Of a DNA stretch of 64,000 nucleotides, positions 8,993 to 23,708 are shown one piece after another (position 1 is the stretch's first letter; each line of letters begins with the position of its first letter). The notes under the pieces are model-generated. The model saw only the letters and a program-made list of their open reading frames with translations, was not told the origin of the DNA and ran no database searches. The stretch is taken from the NCBI RefSeq assembly GCF_003173715.1, contig NZ_CP029550.1:1612001-1676000 (forward strand). Reading direction: 5' to 3'. This stretch comes from Methylobacterium durans (lineage in GTDB: Bacteria > Pseudomonadota > Alphaproteobacteria > Rhizobiales > Beijerinckiaceae). Position numbers and translations under genes: made by a program.

Positions 8993-10048
8993 TCAACCCT
9001 CCCCGTCATCCGCGAACAGCCCGAACTGCGTGGCCGGGTCGCGCCGGGGCTCGGCGAAGCCCATGTGGCGGTAGGCGTGGGGGGTGAGCACGCGCCCGCG
9101 CGGCGTGCGCTGCACGAAGCCTCTCTGGATCAGGTAGGGCTCGATGATGTCCTCGATGGCGTCGCGTGGCTCCGAGAGGGCGGCCGCGATCGTCTCGATG
9201 CCGACCGGCCCGCCGCCGAAGGAATTGACGATCATCGTCAGATACTTGCGGTCCATCACGTCGAGGCCGACCGGGTCGACGTCGAGCATCTGGAGGGCGC
9301 GGTCCGCGATCGCCCGCGTCACGATCGGCGCCTCGTCCACGATCGCGAAGTCGCGCACCCGGCGCAGCAGGCGCCCCGCGATGCGGGGCGTGCCGCGGGC
9401 CCGCTTGGCAATCTCGTTGGCGCCCTCGGACGACATGCCGAGGCCGAGCACCCGGGCGCCGCGGCTGACGATCAGCTCCAGCTCGTCGATGTCGTAGAAT
9501 TCGAGGCGGATCGGGATGCCGAACCGGTCGCGCAAGGGGGTGGTCAGCAGGCCGGCGCGGGTGGTGGCGCCGACGAGGGTAAATTTCGGCAGCTCGATCT
9601 TCACGGAGCGCGCGGCCGGGCCCTCGCCGATGATCAGGTCGAGCTGGTAATCCTCCATGGCGGGATAGAGGATCTCCTCCACCGCCGGGTTGAGGCGGTG
9701 AATCTCGTCGATGAAGAGCACGTCGCGCTCTTCGAGGTTCGTAAGCTGCGCCGCGAGGTCGCCCGCCTTGGCGATGACGGGGCCCGACGTCGAGCGGAAG
9801 TTCACGCCGAGCTCCCGCGCCACGATCTGCGCGAGCGTCGTCTTGCCGAGGCCGGGCGGTCCGACGAAGAGGACGTGGTCGAGGGCTTGGCCCGTCTTGC
9901 GGGCGGCTTCGATGAAGATCTGCATGTTGGCGCGCGCCGCCCGCTGCCCCACGAACTCGGCGAGGCTCAGGGGGCGGATCGACTGGTCGACGTCGTCCGG
10001 GCGGCTCTCGGGATTGAGGAGCGACTTCGGGGCGGGCAACTTGCTCAA
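8993..10048 (-). CDS. ruvB: Holliday junction branch migration ATPase RuvB
   Basis: The 351-residue AAA+ motor has Walker [10 protein letters not shown], Walker B DEIHRL, sensor [20 protein letters not shown], and the C-terminal winged helix ([20 protein letters not shown]). RuvB pumps DNA through RuvA at Holliday junctions. It lies 94 bases before ybgC, the usual alphaproteobacterial order. RuvC and RuvA, which normally precede it, are not upstream here: a short exported protein and a porin gene lie there instead. Confidence 0.97.
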
Positions 10049-10238
10049 CGGGGCTCGCGGGTCGGGCTGAAAGCGAAGGTCACGGAGGTGTTAACCGCTC
10101 CGGCGCTCCAGCACCACCGCGGCATCTCGGCCCGCATCCTCCCGCCGCAGCCCCCCTGAACCCTGTTGGCCGAGGCGGGCCGGGGACTTGCAACGCCCTG
10201 CCCCGAACAGCATTAGTTTTCCGTATCGAGACAGGGTT

Positions 10239-10484
10239 ATGAAAGTCATGCGTCCCATGGCGAGACTCGCCCTCGCCGGAGCCGCGCTCGCGATCCTCGG
10301 CGCCGGGCCGGCGCCGGCCCAGATCGTGCCCGAGACCTCCGGCAAGACCTCGGCCGCCAACTCGCCCGCGGCGGTTGTCCAGACCGGCGCGCGCAAGCGC
10401 CTGAGCTGCTTCGTCTGCGCGACCGAGACCGCGGAGCCGCCGCGCGGCGACGGCCGGCGCCCGCGCGGGTCCGGTCAGTACTGA
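10239..10484 (+). CDS. Small exported protein of unknown function
   Basis: This 81-residue protein starts at the ATG at 10239, with the run ACAGGGTT just upstream. It has a clear signal peptide (MARLALAGAALAILGAGPAP, then AQ). The mature part is about 50 residues with one CxxC pair (LSCFVCATE) and an arginine/proline-rich tail. No family was recognised. Its last ten bases overlap the end of the convergent porin gene. Confidence 0.6.
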   Translation: MKVMRPMARLALAGAALAILGAGPAPAQIVPETSGKTSAANSPAAVVQTGARKRLSCFVCATETAEPPRGDGRRPRGSGQY

Positions 10485-11821
10485 ACCGTCGCGCGCAGGC
10501 CGAGCACCACGCTGTTGCGGAGCCGCGCGAGGTCGGGCCGGCGCGGATTGCCGGCCCCGCCGCCGGGGGCGGCGACGTATTGCAGGCTCGGCTGTACGGT
10601 GAAGCCGGGCGCGACGACCGCCTGATAGGTCAGCTCCAAAGCGGTCTCGCTGCGCCGGATCGGGAGGGGAAGCCCCGCGAAGAGGGCGCGGTCCCAGTCG
10701 GAGAGGCGGGCGCGCCGGGCGATGCGGGTATGGGCGAGCCCGAGACCGGCGACGTCGTCGGGCCGGCCCGGCAGCAGCCCCTTGTAGACGATGCCGGCAT
10801 CCGCGTAGAGGCTGACGAGGCTCGCGGGCGACGGCGAGGCGGCCACGCGCGCGAACACGGCCGCGCCGCGCTCGCCCGCCTCGTCCTCCCGATAGACGGT
10901 CTGATCGAAAAGCGCGTAGAGCCCGTCGTTCCCCCGGCGCCGGGCCGGCAGGCCGGAGCTCCAGGGGGCCGCGAGCGGCACGCCGCCGCGATCGATCCGG
11001 ACATCGTCGAAGGCGCCGAAATGGTGGAAGTAGCCCACCTTCACGACGCCCGTGAGGTCCGGGCCGGGGCCGCCGAGGCTGTAGGCCCGCGCGGCCTCCG
11101 CGATCAGGAAGGGCGATCCGTGCAGGCTGAAATCCGTCCCGTCCGGATTGCGGCGCTGCGGATCGAGGGCGAGGCGGCTCCCGCGCGCGTGAGCCGGGTC
11201 CCCGTTGAAGAGGCCGAACATCAGGCTCGTCTCCGGGGCGGCCTCCCATCTGACCCGGAGACCCGGGGTCGCGAGCGGCGCGGCCGGCCCGCCCGACGGC
11301 AGGTTGGCCGCGGCGATCACCGGCCAGCCGAAGGTGCCGTTCGTGAACAGCGTCGCGGACGGGCTGACCAGGAACTCGGCGTCCGCGGCGAGGTTGCCGG
11401 CGCGGAGGCTGAGCGTCCGGTCGAGGAAGCCCTGCTCCAGCCAGAGTTCGTGCAGCCGCGTCGCCGGCAGGCCCTCGATCCCGCTGACGGGCGCGAGGCT
11501 CCCGACATGGTAGCGCGTCGGCCCGGTCCCGTGGATCTGGTAGGCATTGGCGTGGACGCGCAGCCCCTGCCAGCCGGCCAGCACGCCGAGATCGGCATCG
11601 ACCTGGACGTCGAGCCGGCCCTCGTACACGCTCCGCCGCCGCAGGCCGCCGCGCAGGATTCCGATGGTCTCGCCGATGGAGGTGAGGCCGATCTCGATGC
11701 CCCGCGCCTTAAGGGCCGCGCGCCCGTCATCGAGGGCCGAGGCAAGCCCTGCCGGCGCGCCGGCGAGGAAGGCTGCGGCCAGCAGGATGCCGCATAGACG
11801 CGAACGCAGCCGTCCGGCCAT
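10475..11821 (-). CDS. OprB-family carbohydrate-selective porin
   Basis: The 448-residue protein has a signal peptide (LCGILLAAAFLAGAPAGLAS) and no cytoplasmic features. OprB traits include GRLDVQVDADLGVLAGWQGL, LHELWLEQGFLDRTLSLRAG and FLVSPSATLFTNGTFGWP. A GFTVQPSLQYV segment leads to a terminal beta strand ending ...LGLRATVQY with a C-terminal aromatic residue. It should form an outer-membrane beta-barrel for sugar uptake. ATG 11821 is preferred over a GTG at 11830. It is probably a single-gene unit. Confidence 0.88.
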   Translation of the reverse strand: MAGRLRSRLCGILLAAAFLAGAPAGLASALDDGRAALKARGIEIGLTSIGETIGILRGGLRRRSVYEGRLDVQVDADLGVLAGWQGLRVHANAYQIHGTGPTRYHVGSLAPVSGIEGLPATRLHELWLEQGFLDRTLSLRAGNLAADAEFLVSPSATLFTNGTFGWPVIAAANLPSGGPAAPLATPGLRVRWEAAPETSLMFGLFNGDPAHARGSRLALDPQRRNPDGTDFSLHGSPFLIAEAARAYSLGGPGPDLTGVVKVGYFHHFGAFDDVRIDRGGVPLAAPWSSGLPARRRGNDGLYALFDQTVYREDEAGERGAAVFARVAASPSPASLVSLYADAGIVYKGLLPGRPDDVAGLGLAHTRIARRARLSDWDRALFAGLPLPIRRSETALELTYQAVVAPGFTVQPSLQYVAAPGGGAGNPRRPDLARLRNSVVLGLRATVQY

Positions 11822-14979: not shown

Positions 14980-15906
14980 ATGACCATTCTGTTCCACCAT
15001 CCCGCCGCGTTCGAGCACCGGACTCCGCACGGGCATCCCGAGCGCCCGGAGCGGATGCGCGCGGTGCAGAAGGCGCTGGAAGCGGAGGCTTTCGCCGGGC
15101 TCGACCGGCGCGCCCCCGAGCCGGCTCCCCTTGCCACCGTGACCCTCGCCCATCCCGAGGCGTGGGTGCAGGCGATCGTGGCAGCGGCCCCGACCGACGG
15201 CCTGGTCAGCATCGATTCGGACACCGTCCTGTCGCCGGGCACGCTCGATTGCGTGCTGCGGGGCGTCGGCGCGGGCGTCCAGGGTGTCGATGCGGTGATG
15301 AGCGGGGCGGCCAAGAACGCGTTCTCGGCGATGCGCCCGCCCGGCCACCATGCGGAGAAGACACGCGCCATGGGGTTCTGCGTGTTCAACAACGCGGCGA
15401 TCGCCGCGCGGCACGCCCGGACCGTGCACGGAGTCGAGCGCGTCGCCATCGTCGACTGGGACGTCCACCACGGCAACGGCACCCAGGACATCTTCTGGGA
15501 TGATCCTTCGGTGCTGTTCTGTTCGAGCCACCAGATGCCGCTCTATCCCGGCAGCGGCGCCGTCTCGGAGGAGGGCGAGCACGGCACCGTCGTGAATGCG
15601 CCGCTTCGTCCCGGCGCCGATGGCGAGAGCTTCCGCGAGGCCTTCGAGAGCCGCATCCTGCCGCGCCTCAAGGCGTTCCGGCCCGACCTCATCATCATCT
15701 CGGCGGGCTTCGACGCGCATTGGCGCGATCCGCTGGCGAACCTGATGCTGGAAGCCGAGGATTTCGAATGGGCGACCCGGCAGGTCCTGGAGGAGGCCGA
15801 GCGCTGCTGCCAGGGCCGCGTCGTCTCGCTGCTCGAGGGCGGCTACGACCTGACCGGCCTCGCGGATTCGGTTTCCGCGCACGTGCAGGTGCTGATGGAG
15901 GCGTGA
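14980..15906 (+). CDS. Histone-deacetylase-superfamily amidohydrolase (acetylpolyamine type)
   Basis: The 308-residue protein is a class II HDAC-like zinc hydrolase. Motifs are HPERPERMRAVQ at the N-terminus, the active-site RPPGHHAEKTRAMGFCVFNN (catalytic His pair), the zinc ligands in DWDVHHGNGTQDIF and SAGFDAHWRDPL, and the LEGGYDL glycine/tyrosine loop. Bacterial members usually deacetylate acetylpolyamines or small molecules rather than histones. The start has an ACGGAGG ribosome site. It converges with the peptide-export ABC transporter with only 10 bases between stops, which probably reflects packing, not a shared job. Confidence 0.93.
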   Translation: MTILFHHPAAFEHRTPHGHPERPERMRAVQKALEAEAFAGLDRRAPEPAPLATVTLAHPEAWVQAIVAAAPTDGLVSIDSDTVLSPGTLDCVLRGVGAGVQGVDAVMSGAAKNAFSAMRPPGHHAEKTRAMGFCVFNNAAIAARHARTVHGVERVAIVDWDVHHGNGTQDIFWDDPSVLFCSSHQMPLYPGSGAVSEEGEHGTVVNAPLRPGADGESFREAFESRILPRLKAFRPDLIIISAGFDAHWRDPLANLMLEAEDFEWATRQVLEEAERCCQGRVVSLLEGGYDLTGLADSVSAHVQVLMEA

Positions 15907-15916
15907 GCCTTCCCTC

Positions 15917-18064
15917 TCACTCCGCCGCCCGCGCCGGCGCGAGCGCGGCGGGCGTCGGCTCCGGCCGCTCGAAGCCGAGCACTTGGTCGGCATGCGCGAT
16001 CGTGGCGGGGCGGTGGGCGACGATGACCCGGGTCATGTCAAGCTCGCGCAAAGCTGCGGCGATCGCGGCCTCGGTCGGCTCGTCGAGGTGGCTCGTCGCC
16101 TCGTCGAGGAACAGGATGTCGGGGCGCCGGTAGAGGGCGCGGGCGAGGATGACCCGCTGCTTCTGTCCGCCGGAGAGCGTCGAGCCCATGTCGCCGACCA
16201 GCGTCTCGAAGCCCATCGGCGTGCGCCGGATGTCGGCGAGGATCGCGGCGCGGGCGGCGCATTCCTCGATCCAGCCCTGGTCCGGCCGCTCGTCGAAGCA
16301 GGCGATGTTCTCGGCGATCGAGCCCGCGAACAGCCCGTCGTTCTGCATCACGCCCGCGATCCGGCGGCGATAGGCGGCGGGGCCGATCGTGCGGATGTCG
16401 CGCCCGTCGACCGCGACGCTGCCCTCGCTCGCCGAGAGCAATCCCATCATGATCTTCATCATGGTGGTCTTGCCGCAGCCGGAGGGGCCGGTAATGGCGA
16501 AGCTCGTACCCGCCGGCACGTCGAAGCCGAGGCCGCGAAAGATCCAGGGCTCGTCGGCGCCGTAGCGCAGCGCGAGGCCGCGCACGGCGATGGCGCCCGC
16601 CCGCGAGCCGGCGACGGCGGGAGCCGCCACCTCCGGCGGGGCCGCGCCCGGCCGCTCCTCGGGCTCGGTCAGCACGACGTCGGAGAGCCGATCCGTCTGC
16701 ACGTCGAGCATGCGCAGCTTGAAGCCGGACTCGATGAGATTGCCGACCCGCTGCGAGAACTGGTCCCGGTAGGTCAGGAAGGCGACGAGCATGCCGAGCG
16801 TCATCGACTGCTCGATCACGGCGCGCGCGCCGAGCACCAGCAGGATCAGCCGGTCGGCGCCGAACAGCAGCTCGTTCGCCCGGCCGAAGACGAGGTCGAG
16901 GCGCTGCAGGCGCAGCCGCGCGTTCAGCGCCGTGACGAACTGGTTCATCCAGGCGCCGCGGCGGCGCTCGCGAAGCCCGAGGAGCTTCACGCTCGCCATG
17001 CCCCGCACCGTCTCGATGAAATGCGTCTGCTGGCGCGCCTCGGCGACGATCGCCTCCTCGGTGCCCTCGCGGTAGGCCGCGAAGGCCGCGACCCGGAGCG
17101 CGGTCGTCAGCGCCGTCGAGATCAGGGCGACGAGGGCGAGCCAGCCGCCGTAGACGGCGAGCATGATCAGCATGCCGATCGACATGATGCCGTCGAGCAC
17201 CGCCTGGACGAGGTCGGTGGTGAGGCCCTTCTGGATCGTCGCGAGGGAGCCGAACCGGGAGATCACGTCGCCCACGTGCCGCTTCTCGAAATAGTCGAGG
17301 GGCAGGCGCGAGAGGTGGTCGAACAGGCTGCCCGACCATTGATAATTCAGCGTCGAGCCCGCCAGCATGATGGCCCAGGTGCGCGCCACCGCGAGGGCGA
17401 GTTGGACGAGGAGCAGGAGCACGACGCCGATCGCGACCACGAGCAGGAGGTCGAGGTCGGCGTTCACGATCACCTCGTCGATCACGATCTGCGAGGCGAT
17501 CGGCATCAGGATCGCGATGAGCTCGATTCCGAGGGACAGGGCGAGGATCTGCCCGAGCGCGCCGCGCACGCCGCCGATGTTGCGGAACAGGTCCGCGAGG
17601 CGAAAGCCCGGGGGCGGGCTCGCGCGCACGAAGCCCTGATTCGGGCTCACCTCGAGCGCCACGCCCGTGAACTCGCGCGAGGCCTCGGCCAGGGTGAGGC
17701 TGCGGCGCCCGCGGGCGGGATCGTGCACGACGATGCCCCTGGCGCGCACCTCGGCCAGCACCACGAAGTGGTTGAGGCCCCAGTGCAGGATGCAGGGCAG
17801 CTTGAGGCGGCCGAGATCGGTGAGCTCGACGCGCAGCGCCCGGGCCGCGAGACCCATCGTCCCCGCGAGGTCGATCAGGTTGCGCAGGGTCATGCCCTTG
17901 AGGGAGAGGGCGTGGCGGCGGCGCAGCGCGCCGAGATCGATCGCGTGCCCGTGGTGGCCGAGCACCATGGCGAGGCAGGCCATGCCGCACTCGGCGGCCT
18001 CGGCCTGCAGGATGACGGGCAGGCGCCGGCCGAAGCCGAACTGGAGGGCGTCGCGCACGGCCAC
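15917..18064 (-). CDS. Peptidase C39 ABC transporter for double-glycine peptides
   Basis: The 715-residue protein has three parts. The N-terminal C39 cysteine peptidase (residues 1-130) has Q20, C26 (QAEAAECGMACLAMV), H99 (HWGLNHFVVL) and D115. The ABC exporter membrane domain spans about residues 160-440. The ATPase has GPSGCGKTT, LSGGQKQRVILARAL and ILFLDEATSHLDE. Such proteins cut double-glycine leaders and export the mature peptide through the inner membrane. The HlyD-like adaptor ends 3 bases before its start, so they form an operon. The likely cargo is the divergent peptide at 20008-20235. All catalytic residues are present, so cleavage should work. Confidence 0.95.
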   Translation of the reverse strand: MAVRDALQFGFGRRLPVILQAEAAECGMACLAMVLGHHGHAIDLGALRRRHALSLKGMTLRNLIDLAGTMGLAARALRVELTDLGRLKLPCILHWGLNHFVVLAEVRARGIVVHDPARGRRSLTLAEASREFTGVALEVSPNQGFVRASPPPGFRLADLFRNIGGVRGALGQILALSLGIELIAILMPIASQIVIDEVIVNADLDLLLVVAIGVVLLLLVQLALAVARTWAIMLAGSTLNYQWSGSLFDHLSRLPLDYFEKRHVGDVISRFGSLATIQKGLTTDLVQAVLDGIMSIGMLIMLAVYGGWLALVALISTALTTALRVAAFAAYREGTEEAIVAEARQQTHFIETVRGMASVKLLGLRERRRGAWMNQFVTALNARLRLQRLDLVFGRANELLFGADRLILLVLGARAVIEQSMTLGMLVAFLTYRDQFSQRVGNLIESGFKLRMLDVQTDRLSDVVLTEPEERPGAAPPEVAAPAVAGSRAGAIAVRGLALRYGADEPWIFRGLGFDVPAGTSFAITGPSGCGKTTMMKIMMGLLSASEGSVAVDGRDIRTIGPAAYRRRIAGVMQNDGLFAGSIAENIACFDERPDQGWIEECAARAAILADIRRTPMGFETLVGDMGSTLSGGQKQRVILARALYRRPDILFLDEATSHLDEPTEAAIAAALRELDMTRVIVAHRPATIAHADQVLGFERPEPTPAALAPARAAE

Positions 18065-18067
18065 GCC

Positions 18068-19339
18068 TCAGCCGCCCTCGGTGACGAGATCGACGCTGCG
18101 CTTGACCCGAAAGAGCGGGTCGAGCAGCCAGCGGTAGAGCGGGCGCGTTTCCAGCGCGATGTCCGCCTCGACGCGCATGCCGGCCTCGAGCCGGCGGCGC
18201 TCGCCGTAGGCCAGCACGCCGTCCTCGTCGGGCCGCACCACGATCCGGTAGATGCCGCCGGCCTTCCGCACGCCCGCGGTCTCGGGCACGTCGTCCCCGT
18301 CCAGGGGTGCGCGCGTCACCTCCGTCACCACGCCGCGGTAGAGGCCGAAGCGCTGGAAGGGGAAGGCGGCGTAGCGCAGCATCACCGAAGCGCCCGTCTC
18401 GATGAAGCCGATCGAAGCGGAATCGACGAAGAGATTCGCCTGAAGCCGCCCCTCGCTCGGCAACAGCGTGAGCAGGGTTGCGCCCGCCCCCACGCTCTGG
18501 CCAGCCTGAGCGCGGATCGAGGTGAGGATGCCGGCCTCGGGCGCACGCACCTCGATCGCCCGGCGCGCCTCGCTCTCGGCCCGCTGCTGCTCCAGCTGGG
18601 CCGCGCTGCGGTCCATGTCGGCGATGTCGCGGGCGAGGCGGTCGTCGAAGGTCGCCCGCTGCGACTTGAGGTCGGCGATCCGGCCACCGAGCTGCAGGTT
18701 CGTCTGCTTGAATTGGGCAAGCTGCGTGCTCGCCTGCATGTAGAGGTAGTTCTGGCTCTGCAGGTCGGCGGCGCGGGCGAGGCCGTTGGTGACGGCCTTC
18801 GCGAGCACGTCGACGCGCTCCCGCAGGGGCTGGACCAGCCGCTCCTGCAGGTCGATCTGCTCGGACAGCTGGTGGGCCTGCGCCTCTAGGTTCGCGATCT
18901 GCTCCGAGAGCGCGCGCTTCTCGGTCTCGGCGGTGGAGGCACGCAGGCTCCGCTGCTTCTCGACGCTCTCCTTCTGCCGGCCGAGCTCGTCGATGACCCG
19001 GGTCTGGGTCGGGCCGCTCGCGGAGACCGCGTCGAGATCGATCGTGAAGAGGAGCTGGCCCCGCTCGACCCGACCGCCCTCGCGGCCCCCCGCGGCGCTG
19101 ACCCGGCCCGCAACGGGGCTCGTCAGCGTGATCAGGCCGACATTCGGCGTGAGCAGGCCCTGCGCATGGACGCGGCGGGTGTAGCTACCGAGGGCGGCGT
19201 AGGCGAGCGCGGCGAGGATCAGCGCGAGGCAGACCCCGGTCACGAAGCGCAGAGGCAGCGGCTGAACGAGCTGCGCTTCGCCGAGCCAGGCATCGCGCCG
19301 GGCCGCGGCGACCTCGCGCCGGAAGAGCGGCGACGTCAT
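18068..19339 (-). CDS. HlyD-family periplasmic adaptor of the peptide exporter
   Basis: The 423-residue membrane fusion protein has an N-terminal membrane helix (RFVTGVCLALILAALAYAAL), a lipoyl-like half (LITLTSPVAGRVS), and a long coiled coil of about 150 residues (ALSEQIANLEAQAHQL and on). The second half (EVRAPEAGILTSIRAQAGQS) and a beta-barrel region (GIYRIVVRPDEDGV) follow. It resembles the CvaA/bacteriocin-secretion subgroup. With the C39 transporter and an unlinked TolC-like outer-membrane channel it should make a type I secretion system. It is the first gene of the two-gene operon, transcribed away from the peptide gene. Confidence 0.93.
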   Translation of the reverse strand: MTSPLFRREVAAARRDAWLGEAQLVQPLPLRFVTGVCLALILAALAYAALGSYTRRVHAQGLLTPNVGLITLTSPVAGRVSAAGGREGGRVERGQLLFTIDLDAVSASGPTQTRVIDELGRQKESVEKQRSLRASTAETEKRALSEQIANLEAQAHQLSEQIDLQERLVQPLRERVDVLAKAVTNGLARAADLQSQNYLYMQASTQLAQFKQTNLQLGGRIADLKSQRATFDDRLARDIADMDRSAAQLEQQRAESEARRAIEVRAPEAGILTSIRAQAGQSVGAGATLLTLLPSEGRLQANLFVDSASIGFIETGASVMLRYAAFPFQRFGLYRGVVTEVTRAPLDGDDVPETAGVRKAGGIYRIVVRPDEDGVLAYGERRRLEAGMRVEADIALETRPLYRWLLDPLFRVKRSVDLVTEGG

Positions 19340-19563
19340 CGCGGCCCTTTTGGCCGGCCGGGGCGGTGAAGATCAAGGGGCAATGTCCGCAAGCGCACGG
19401 TTCGCGGACCCGCCGCTCGACGGGATGGGCGTCCCCACGGAAGCGACGGCCGCCGAAGCGACAGTGCGAGGCGGAGCACTGCAGACCGGCATTCCTCGAT
19501 GTTGCAGTGCAGCATGAGCCGATCGCCGAACCTGCCCCGGCCGGCCTACGCAACTCTTCGTAC

Positions 19564-19589
19564 GAAACAGGACGAAGATACCCTGTTTC
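19564..19589. promoter_or_regulatory. 8-10-8 inverted repeat upstream of the exporter operon
   Basis: GAAACAGG and CCTGTTTC form a perfect 8-bp dyad with 10 bases between. It lies 225 bases before the HlyD-like gene. The spacing fits a dimeric repressor or activator site, but no regulator is known. Confidence 0.4.
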
Positions 19590-19861
19590 AGGCACTTGGA
19601 GGCGCGCGCTGAGCCGATGCTTGACCGTTTCCGCATCGCGCCCCGCGGCGTCACGAACGCAGGTTGCGTCATCCGACCGCACCCTGCGCGATTTCGCGCG
19701 CGCTTCCGGCAGCTTGCCGCCATTGAGGCCGAATTGCGGCGCTGCCTTGCTTTGGCCATCTCCCCGACGGCGCAGCGCTCTGACCGCTCCAAAAGCTCCG
19801 TTCCCGGAGGAAGATACCGCCGAGCTGCAGCTCGAACGGGGCAGCATGAATTTTGAATGCC

Positions 19862-19879
19862 GAGCAATTCGTATTGCTC
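19862..19879. promoter_or_regulatory. 7-4-7 inverted repeat upstream of the glycine-zipper peptide gene
   Basis: GAGCAAT, TCGT, ATTGCTC is a perfect 18-base dyad about 130 bases before the peptide start. Its size is like a LuxR-type or other dimeric regulator site. The identity of the regulator is unknown. Confidence 0.45.
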
Positions 19880-20007
19880 TGCACAATTTGCACGGGTTGA
19901 AGCTTCATTCCGGCCATGCTCCCCTATTGGACGAAGCGTTGCTTAGAGCGCTTCTCTAGAGGCTGGAAGAAATTCTAGCCAATAGTTTGCAGTCTAGGAG
20001 AAAATTT

Positions 20008-20235
20008 ATGTCGCAGAACTTCGATACCATCCGTGAGCTGGGTGCTTCGGAACTGGATGAGGTCGGCGGTGGCCTCGATGTCGGCCTCGGCGTGGGTCTC
20101 CACGTCGATGCTAGCCAGGAGCTCGGCGCGGTCTCGGGTGCGATCGATCAGGTCGGCGGCTTGGTAGGCGGTCTTCTCGGGACGGTCGGCGGGCTGCTCG
20201 GCGGCGTCACCGGCAGCGTCGGCCTCAACAAGTAG
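20008..20235 (+). CDS. Glycine-zipper bacteriocin/toxin-like peptide with double-glycine leader
   Basis: The 75-residue peptide starts at ATG 20008, seven bases after TAGGAG. The leader IRELGASELDEVGGG fits the double-glycine consensus exactly if cut after Gly22: L at -12, E at -8, L at -7, V at -4, GG at -2/-1. The mature 53 residues are hydrophobic, cysteine-free and full of GxxxG-like steps (GGLVGGLLGTVGGLLGGVTG), so it likely inserts in or assembles on membranes. The divergent C39 exporter is the obvious partner. It recalls the CdzC/CdzD contact-dependent glycine-zipper toxins of Caulobacter, and class II bacteriocins. No immunity gene is recognised. The toxic role is inference; the leader is seen directly. 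Confidence 0.85.
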   Translation: MSQNFDTIRELGASELDEVGGGLDVGLGVGLHVDASQELGAVSGAIDQVGGLVGGLLGTVGGLLGGVTGSVGLNK

Positions 20236-20247
20236 GCGCGAAGCCTC

Positions 20248-20272
20248 GGGCGGCGGGACAATCCCGCCGCCC
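20248..20272 (+). terminator. Strong hairpin after the peptide gene
   Basis: GGGCGGCGGGA and TCCCGCCGCCC form a perfect 11-bp stem with a 3-base loop, 12 bases after the stop codon. No T-run follows. It would make the peptide gene monocistronic and protect its message. Confidence 0.7.
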
Positions 20273-20366
20273 ATGCAGGGTGCGGCAGCGATCTCGAATC
20301 CGTCCGGAACGGGTCCGTCACGGCCCCGTTACTCAAGCCTCCTCGGTCCCGGCCCGGAGGCCGCCT

Positions 20367-21218
20367 GTGTTTCACCCGGACGCCTCGAAACTCGAGTTGC
20401 TCGCCCGCCTCGGCTACGGCGCGCGCGGGATCGTCTACTGCCTCGTGGGCGGCCTCGCCGCGCTCGCCGCCATCGGTTCGGGCGGCCAGACCGGCGGTAG
20501 CAAGAGCGCGCTGGCGAGCCTGCTCGGCCAACCCTTCGGGCGCGCCTGGATCGGCCTCATCGCGCTCGGTCTCGTCGGCTTCGCGCTCTGGCGGGTGATC
20601 GAGGCCGTGACCGACGCGGACCGGCACGGCCACTCGGCCAAGGGCCTCGCCGTGCGCGCCGGCCATGCCGTAAGCGGCGTCGTCTACGGCGGCCTGGCGC
20701 TCTCGGCCGCGCGGCTCGCGATGGGGAGCGGCGGCGGTGGCGACGACCGGGCGGCGCGGGACTGGACCGCGTGGCTCCTCGCCAAGCCGCTCGGCCAAGT
20801 CCTCACCGGGCTCATCGGCGCGATCGTGATCGGGGTCGGCCTCGCCTACCTTCGCAAGAGCTGGAAGGGCGACGTCCTGCGGCGGCTCTCGCTCCCCTCG
20901 GAGGTCCATCGCTGGGCCGTGCCGGTCGGGCGCCTCGGCTTCGCCGCGCGGGGCGTGGTGTTCACCCTCATCGGCGCCTTCCTCATCCTCGCCGCCTTCC
21001 ACAGCCGGTCGGCGGAGGCCAAGGGACTCGGCGAGGCCCTGCAATTCATCGGGCGGCAGCCCTTCGGCTGGGTGCTCCTCGCGGTGACCGCGGCGGGCCT
21101 CTTCGCCTTCGGCCTGTTCGGATTGGTGCAGGCCCGCTACCGCCACATCGACGCGCCGGACGCCTCCGACGCGAAGGCGGCGCTGCGGAACGCCGCCTCG
21201 TCGCTGCGCGGCACCTGA
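20367..21218 (+). CDS. DUF1206 integral membrane protein
   Basis: The 283-residue protein starts at GTG 20367, six bases after CGGAGG. It contains three repeats of a two-helix unit, each beginning with a similar motif: LGYGARGIVYCLVGGLAAL, AGHAVSGVVYGGLALSAA and LGFAARGVVFTLIGAFLIL. This is the DUF1206 pattern, and the function is unknown. It lies after the peptide gene's hairpin, on the same strand. It is a widespread family, so I do not propose it as the immunity protein, although position alone would allow that. Confidence 0.88.
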   Translation: MFHPDASKLELLARLGYGARGIVYCLVGGLAALAAIGSGGQTGGSKSALASLLGQPFGRAWIGLIALGLVGFALWRVIEAVTDADRHGHSAKGLAVRAGHAVSGVVYGGLALSAARLAMGSGGGGDDRAARDWTAWLLAKPLGQVLTGLIGAIVIGVGLAYLRKSWKGDVLRRLSLPSEVHRWAVPVGRLGFAARGVVFTLIGAFLILAAFHSRSAEAKGLGEALQFIGRQPFGWVLLAVTAAGLFAFGLFGLVQARYRHIDAPDASDAKAALRNAASSLRGT

Positions 21219-22643: not shown

Positions 22644-22943
22644 GGCGGGCCACCTCGCTATCGTCGGGCACGACGCTCGGCCTCGGCCCGCGACGCAGGC
22701 CGGAACGGAGCGACGGTAGCATGTCTTCCCAGCGGGCGAATACGGAATCTGGAGGACAGCCCCGAGGTTTCGCCGAGACGACCCGAAAGGAGCGCAGCCC
22801 CGCGGGCGCCTCTCGTGTCGGCCTGACCTGCGGGAGCGTCCGATCCCGACCGTCTGCGAGCGTACCCTGCGCCGAACCGTGTGGACCCGCGCCCGGCGCG
22901 CTTCCGCCGTCCCCGGAAACGGGGCAACTTAACGCCGGTCGGC

Positions 22944-23708
22944 ATGAAGAGGGCGCACCGCATGAAGCGGCAAGGACTCGGCCCGCGGCGGCTGATGCTC
23001 GCTCTGCTGCTGCAGACGGGCGTGCTCGCCGGACCGGCGAAGGCGGAGATCCGTGTTCTCGCCGCCAAGATCACCGGCGGCGAGCTCTGGGTGCTCGGCT
23101 CGGCCGATGCCGTGGATTCCGAGATCACCCTCGACACCCGCTTCTCCGCCCGGACCGACAAGAGCGGAAACTTCGAATTCCGGATCGTCTACCATCCGGC
23201 GAGCTGCATCGTGACCCTGCGGGTCCGCCAGCAGGACCGCGCCGCGGTCGTGGGCGATTGCGGGCAGCAGGGCCCGGCCGGCGCCCCCGGACCCGCCGGC
23301 CCGCGTGCGGCCGCGGCGGAGGCCGTCGCGGGACCACCGGGCCCACCCGGACCGGCGGGCAAGCCCGGTCCGCAAGGCCCTCCCGGACCGGCGGGAGAAC
23401 CCGGCCCGGCGGGGCTGCCGGGTCCGGCCGGGACGAGCGGCACGGCCGGCCTTCCCGGGCCGCCGGGCCCGCAGGGGCCGCGCGGCGAGGCGGGACCGGC
23501 CGGACATCCGGGCGAGACGGGTCCCGCCGGGCCGGCCGGAGCGCCCGGCAAGATCGGCCCGCGCGGGCCTGCCGGGCCGCCGGGGCCGCGCAACGTCGTG
23601 GGGACGCGGGGCGCGCAGGACCCGGACCGATCGCGCTCGCGCGCCGGTCCCGAGGATCCCATCCCCCTGCAGCCGCCGGGTGCCGCGGCGCCGGAGGAAC
23701 CCTATTGA
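22944..23708 (+). CDS. Exported collagen-like Gly-X-Y repeat protein
   Basis: A 254-residue protein from ATG 22944; a second Met lies six codons on. It has a signal peptide ([18 protein letters not shown]). A globular N-terminal domain of about 80 residues follows ([39 protein letters not shown], ending VVGDCGQ). Then come about 110 residues of collagen Gly-X-Y triplets ([33 protein letters not shown]), broken once by an alanine-rich AAAAEAVA. A polar proline-rich tail ends it. It should trimerise as a collagen helix outside the cell. A trypsin-like protease follows 140 bases downstream on the same strand. Confidence 0.88.

Follow-up and report, generated by a model that had tools for sequence, protein, structure and literature searches.

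A putative Methylobacterium-centred family of Cdz-like glycine-zipper peptides and their C39 exporter

The Cdz system of Caulobacter crescentus is encoded by two divergent operons, cdzAB and cdzCDI. According to the portion of its description available to us (PMC5380434), Cdz-like systems mostly contain one peptide, with two adjacent peptides in 14% of them; their immunity genes are hard to find, and their toxins vary substantially in comparison with the conserved exporters. Here we analyze a locus of Methylobacterium durans that consists of a double-glycine (GG) peptide gene beside genes for a C39-peptidase ATP-binding cassette (ABC) exporter and an HlyD-like periplasmic adaptor. The locus lies in a 64,000-nucleotide stretch of contig NZ_CP029550.1 (positions 1,612,001 to 1,676,000), which we call the window and whose numbering is used below. 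In our best reading, the locus belongs to a new family of Cdz-like glycine-zipper peptides that is centred on Methylobacterium and served by a dedicated exporter.

Comparison with described export systems

The precursor peptide has 75 amino acids (20008-20235, + strand), and is composed of a 22-amino-acid double-glycine leader (20008-20073, + strand; MSQNFDTIRELGASELDEVGGG), with a predicted cut after residue 22, and a 53-amino-acid mature part that is cysteine-free, contains glycine zippers and has a net charge of -3. The ABC exporter gene (715 amino acids, GTG start; 15917-18064, - strand) and the adaptor gene (423 amino acids; 18068-19339, - strand) are separated by 3 nucleotides and diverge from the peptide gene, as an earlier note on this DNA had described. 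The intergenic stretch of 668 nucleotides (19340-20007) presumably carries promoters and a ribosome-binding site, and an AGGAGAA site ends 5 nucleotides upstream of the peptide ATG (20008).

Likeness to Cdz was judged by features printed in the accessible part of PMC5380434, and not by homology to CdzC or CdzD. At 75 residues the peptide falls within the published range of 60-151; its leader, for which an ending of G[G/A/S] is described, reads VGGG at positions -4 to -1; residues 48-74 agree with the one or two zippers that are flanked, and uninterrupted, by proline or charge; its C-terminal end, LNK, is polar; and the HlyD start lies 668 nucleotides away, where type I secretion genes are described within 10 kb. 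For a small membrane immunity protein, which is CdzI in Caulobacter and is seen in some Cdz-like loci only, no shared candidate was found. The suggestion of the earlier note that the pair of double-glycine peptide and C39 exporter resembles Cdz or class II bacteriocins is supported.

In common with Caulobacter Cdz, as far as the same source describes it, the exporter and peptide operons diverge, the locus itself carries only the ABC and adaptor genes of the exporter, and a small peptide has a leader ending in GG, glycine zippers and a polar C-terminal end. Two peptides occur in 12 of the 43 Methylobacterium genomes that have the locus, which recalls the CdzC/CdzD pair. Unlike Cdz, no gene for a CdzI-like small membrane protein was found in the window locus or common to its 42 orthologues, the peptide is conserved within the genus, and a gene of the AraC family neighbours it in 31 of the 43 loci. 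A single peptide, divergent placing and the want of a recognised immunity gene had been proposed as marks of a new branch, but none of the three serves as one: in the accessible text of PMC5380434 most Cdz-like systems have one peptide, the Caulobacter cdz operons are likewise divergent, and a missing immunity gene lies within the published variation. Three features set the family apart from known Cdz-like systems: the depth at which the search for an immunity gene came out negative, a peptide that is conserved, and an AraC neighbour at most of the loci. The new elements are that beyond exporter and peptide only AraC was found to be shared, in 31 of 43 loci, that the DUF1206 neighbour is a genus core gene, that some genomes have two peptides, and that the mature peptide approaches HlyD in conservation.

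Class II bacteriocins (PF10439) and class II microcins (MccV) share with this locus the leader, the C39 exporter, and the lack of a shared modification gene. Unlike them, the window peptide is acidic and without cysteine, has no Pfam match at E<=1, and has no immunity gene that we found. The ABC protein resembles the transporters PCAT1 and ComA, to which it matches over nearly its full length and with the C39 triad, but its gene shares an operon with a gene for a Gram-negative HlyD adaptor. Residues 11-696 align to structure 4ry2 ('ABC-type bacteriocin transporter'; E 1.1e-76), which we take to be PCAT1, and residues 19-695 to 8hf7 (ComA; E 1.3e-66); slightly higher scores go to eukaryotic P-glycoprotein-type chains, owing to the ATPase part.

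A bacteriocin and exporter have been annotated in the genus Methylobacterium before (PMC4161386), and these may or may not be the same genes. No publication on this peptide family was among the literature matches listed, and the accessible part of PMC10673610 holds nothing on it.

The peptide gene is real and linked to its exporter

The 75-amino-acid peptide is a real gene. A phmmer search with 126 candidates returned 36 relatives at E<=0.01, and of 7988 candidates scored with a profile of 17 members picked by hand (A3), 93 reached E<=0.001. The named organisms among these 93 are Methylobacterium/Methylorubrum, Chelatococcus, Methylopila and Methylovirgula, with Azonexus and Methylocystis at weaker E-values; most are without a name. 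Where the loci of the nearest peptides bear a name, it is Methylobacterium, for example M. segetis. Some relatives bear the UniRef label 'Bacteriocin'. Profile A1 was made from 28 of 37 proteins, and includes P0025, which has an aberrant tail, and P0016, which has a long N-terminus. At the 43 loci in the genus there are 54 peptide frames, of which 45 are distinct.

The leader residues L-12, E-8, L-7, V-4, G-3, G-2 and G-1 are invariant in all 45 distinct peptides, and the six positions that the earlier note had read in the window peptide (all of these except G-3) are each present there. Its description of a cysteine-free mature part rich in glycine zippers also holds: the 53 residues have no cysteine and nine GxxxG pairs, compared with a mean of 4.28 in 2000 same-letter shuffles (fraction reaching nine, 0.0025). 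In the family this fraction is below 0.05 for 37 of the 45 distinct peptides, and the corresponding fraction for GxxxGxxxG is below 0.05 for 23 of the 45. Residues 48-74 form a run of 27 residues free of proline and charge, bounded by D47 and K75. One peptide, that of locus L108, was read from an internal methionine, which leaves a leader of 15 amino acids.

Median ratios of nonsynonymous to synonymous substitution (dN/dS) in five reference sets are 0.05-0.22 for the peptide and 0.08-0.19 for HlyD, and the peptide is under purifying selection of the same order as HlyD. The set of L117 gives the peptide 0.22, about twice the values for HlyD (0.10) and ABC (0.09); an overlong ABC frame in L134 (1135 amino acids) was left out of this use. 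Sequence identities were compared for 820 pairs from 41 loci (L131 and L102 left out), with one type-1 peptide per locus. In five bins of rising exporter identity, the median identity of the mature part is 68.9, 71.1, 83.0, 90.0 and 93.5%, and that of HlyD is 71.6, 72.4, 85.5, 91.6 and 95.8%; gaps were ignored, which flatters the length-variable peptide. Correlation with ABC identity is 0.78 for the mature part and 0.95 for HlyD. The peptide is slightly less conserved than HlyD in all five bins, and is not hypervariable.

An orthologous exporter, at 77% identity or more, is present in 43 of 111 genomes of the genus, whereas none of the other exporters listed at E<=1e-100 exceeds 51% identity. 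The peptide profile matched 44 of the 111 genomes; the additional match, in G322, has an E-value of 0.005 and sits inside a 551-amino-acid frame, and we take it as chance. The same 43 genomes hold peptide and orthologous exporter, the other 68 showed neither, and none was found with one alone, among the best 10 exporter candidates and up to 54 peptide candidates scored per genome. The earlier note had held that exporters lacking the peptide in related genomes would speak against its proposal; there are 0 such cases in 43. The peptide adjoins the HlyD start in all 43 loci, divergently in 33 (the window included) and on the same strand, ahead of HlyD-ABC, in 10 (L106-L115).

On a recA tree of 110 genomes, 42 of them with the locus (G323 had no recA match), presence of the locus changes at least 13 times, 10 of these on starred branches, and one clade keeps it in 16 of its 17 genomes. 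recA is a weak species marker, with 46 of 107 inner branches open, and its rows were cut using a 437-amino-acid open stretch that is longer than recA itself. Because the peptide and exporter sets are identical, the joint-change test ran one presence vector twice, and counts independent changes only. In the 41 loci whose flanks are long enough, the left flanks form 11 DNA clusters, suggesting that the peptide-exporter pair stays together in different places, although some clusters may be one place that has diverged.

In a wider sample of the family, 28 of 298 genomes have a peptide match at E<=0.01, of which 17 are within the genus. Ten of the other 11 were examined (G047 was left out): six loci (L149-L154) have peptide, HlyD and ABC genes, with ABC identities of 64-71%, L155 has a partial peptide together with a fragment of an exporter where the stretch ends, and L156-L158 have neither.

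The ABC protein carries Peptidase_C39 (E 3.9e-34), ABC_membrane (4.6e-32) and ABC_tran (3.7e-29) Pfam domains, and the catalytic triad C26, H99 and D115, Walker A, LSGGQ and Walker B are all present. The domains and residues bear out the earlier assignment of an intact C39 transporter, and this combination of C39, ABC transmembrane and ATPase domains with a Cys/His/Asp triad is that of a peptidase-containing ABC transporter (PCAT). Its score for NHLP bacteriocin export (TIGR03796) is 469.5 bits, short of the cut-off of 853.3. The adaptor matches HlyD_3 above the Pfam cut-off (E 3.9e-15), and TIGR01843 at 124.2 bits, under its cut-off of 208.65. The locus had been called a complete export locus, and this stands for peptide, adaptor and C39 exporter but not for the outer-membrane channel, whose gene is not in the locus; the genome has OEP-family matches at three places outside it. 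Apart from the exporter, this single-contig genome of 6,788,375 bases has no C39 match at E<=1e-5. As the sole C39 peptidase found, it is almost certainly the processor of the peptide, and the peptide is very probably its cargo.

Some loci have further peptides. Eleven two-peptide loci comprise eight co-directional tandems (L107-L114) and three divergent cases (L100, L103 and L104) in which the second peptide has a different mature sequence; in the twelfth two-peptide genome, G130, the peptides lie at the ends of two contigs. A second type of GG peptide, with the mature part ELSVS.GGLNELIDTVH.IPAG, was observed beside the exporter in four genomes that also hold a type-1 peptide (L100 7813-8109, L103 7967-8221, L104 7731-8039 and L102 7984-8253), and the two types perhaps form a two-peptide system.

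More distant exporters were also seen. In genome G379 a different GG-leader peptide (L139 3347-3658, - strand; profile E 0.0047), with an aromatic, non-zipper mature part, adjoins an exporter of 51% identity. A second exporter group (L143-L147), 31-34% identical, is found in 26 genomes of the genus at E<=1e-100, of which 22 are without the locus described here; L146 and L147 come from genomes that have it. A weak, cysteine-bearing, leader-like frame lies nearby in L143 (E 0.061).

Neighbouring genes and the search for immunity

No immunity gene common to the 43 loci was found, and AraC is the only product shared by at least four flank groups; a gene confined to three or fewer groups would have escaped this search. 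At this depth, a recognised immunity gene is lacking from the locus set as a whole. Such a gene may reside elsewhere in the genome, occur in few lineages, or evolve too fast for BLAST.

The result rests on a scan for hidden open reading frames (ORFs) and on clustering of the flanks. The scan used five reference loci and ORFs of at least 30 amino acids that occur in at least 60% of the comparison loci, with coverage >0.6 and dN/dS <0.5. Beyond peptide, HlyD, ABC and AraC, it returned mostly frames lying over these genes, with some flank frames, for example in L117 (2618-3568, 3376-4002 and 9689-9790), L134 (3562-4530 and 10174-10329) and L104 (3339-3662 and a run of short frames at 9179-10630). 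Clustering of stop-to-stop frames of at least 30 amino acids at E<=1e-4 showed that these flank frames are not widely shared, and none was kept as a hidden immunity ORF. In the left flanks, this clustering found no frame shared by four or more flank groups. In the right flanks 90 frames are so shared, of which 32 match AraC; each of the remaining 58 has at least half of its length over the AraC frame, and 30 of these have 90% or more. Short frames between HlyD and the peptide that are common to four to eight loci of one clade (for example, L117 7629-7871) fail the conservation scan, and no small ORF in the 668-nucleotide intergenic region passed it.

A DUF1206 membrane protein gene (20280-21218, + strand) starts 45 nucleotides past the peptide stop. 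It was rejected as an immunity gene: 108 of the 111 genomes have relatives of it, whether or not they carry the locus, and among the 43 loci it adjoins the peptide in just three, those of the window, L096 and L097. It is a core gene of the genus. On the other side, a histone-deacetylase-like gene (14980-15906) has relatives in 110 of the 111 genomes, adjoins the exporter in the same three loci only, and is assigned to the flank rather than to the locus. A collagen-like protein with long G-P-P type repeats is encoded at 22881-23708 (+ strand; Pfam Collagen E 1.4e-16).

The AraC-family neighbours carry HTH_18 and HTH_AraC domains in the three that were scanned. The search found no AraC gene in the window or at L096-L105 (10 loci), and L098, L102 and L131 break off shortly after the peptide (L131 at a contig end), which limits the absence there. 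Just downstream of the peptide in L128, an additional AraC-related frame of 192 amino acids precedes the full AraC gene, and is perhaps a partial duplicate.

Other scans of the locus found no promoter, one terminator-like site that is not above chance, two Rfam matches that are both far under their cut-offs, and, with PADLOC, ATPase-domain and coiled-coil matches only.

Possible functions of the peptide

Recognition and cleavage of leaders by C39 domains, followed by export, is established biology, and on this basis we predict that the exporter's C39 domain recognises the leader of the 75-amino-acid precursor and cuts it after GG. The ABC and HlyD proteins, together with an outer-membrane channel encoded elsewhere, would then export the 53-amino-acid mature peptide. 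Its hydrophobic glycine-zipper half may insert in membranes or self-assemble; membrane action is predicted because of the excess of GxxxG pairs over shuffles and the run without proline or charge. The action would most likely be like that of Caulobacter Cdz and of class II bacteriocins and microcins, that is, short-range, membrane-active and directed against related bacteria, and self-protection would come from something without a separate conserved gene in the locus. Matches of chosen family members to Bacteriocin_IIc and MccV, detailed below, and of seven of the 17 to 'CTB family bacteriocin' of NCBIfam (best 3.8e-4) speak for this reading. Our judgement of this whole statement, a one-cargo C39 (PCAT) type I export of a Cdz-like membrane-active peptide against related bacteria, is evenly balanced, and the proposition that the peptide is antibacterial could equally prove true or false.

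Several results weigh against such a toxin, besides the lack of an immunity candidate. The window peptide has no Pfam match at E<=1, Bacteriocin_IIc (PF10439) included, and its NCBIfam match, to TigB, a ribosomally synthesized and post-translationally modified peptide (RiPP), is weak and sub-cut-off (E 0.031). The AlphaFold model is poor (mean pLDDT, its confidence score, 60.5), with one long helix of low confidence at 36-73, and has no structure match in the PDB. The near-HlyD conservation of the mature part is unlike the variation of Cdz-like toxins in the accessible part of PMC5380434; such slow change tells somewhat against a polymorphic toxin, and not against any toxin.

The main alternative, which we regard as possible though rather unlikely, is that the secreted peptide is directed at the producers themselves, as a density signal or a component of the surface or biofilm. 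The exporter would mature the peptide, the whole lineage would share it, and the linked AraC gene would control it or respond to it in most lineages. Its dN/dS of 0.05-0.22, a mature part that changes nearly at the pace of HlyD, the failure to find an immunity candidate in 43 loci, the frequent AraC neighbour, and retention of the locus by nearly all of one recA clade are consistent with this proposal. Elsewhere in the genus, however, the locus is patchily distributed, and it occupies several genomic places, as would better suit an accessory, competitive trait; an AraC gene was not found in the window or in L096-L105, with the truncations noted above; a hydrophobic zipper of 53 amino acids would also be an unusual shape for a signal. 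A fuller version, still a little more doubtful, is that Methylobacterium itself uses this immunity-free, slowly evolving, C39-exported non-bacteriocin peptide, tied to AraC in most lineages, as a density signal or a surface-assembling factor, with leaves as one possible setting.

It is improbable that the peptide is a class II bacteriocin or microcin that is freed into the medium and diffuses, instead of being surface-bound, with immunity provided by membrane composition or the exporter. Both the leader and the exporter are of class II type, and Bacteriocin_IIc (PF10439; best E 4.6e-6) and MccV (PF17508; weak, 0.021) are each matched by four of the 17 chosen family members. Class II bacteriocins are typically cationic, however, whereas the net charge of the mature part is -1 to -4 in all 45 distinct peptides, and an uninterrupted zipper would favour aggregation. 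A RiPP was rejected, as there are weak sub-cut-off matches only (lantibiotic type A in 10 of the 17 members, best E 0.027; TigB in nine, best 0.01) and no modification gene is common to the loci. A short, glycine-rich frame in GC-rich DNA without a Pfam match could in principle arise by chance or have no relation to the exporter, but we consider this very improbable, since it is contradicted by the co-occurrence and linkage in 43 of 43 loci, the leader invariants, the dN/dS values and the relatives in other genera.

A family of Cdz-like peptides with a dedicated exporter, our best reading, offers a clean system of single exporter and single peptide. The genus is plant-associated and has laboratory strains, and relatives with one peptide, two peptides or none occur naturally. 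Two questions about Cdz-like glycine-zipper peptides thereby become directly testable: whether an immunity gene is required, and whether some of the peptides serve as signals or surface material rather than as weapons. The most interesting point of this peptide-exporter family is whether it is a weapon at all.

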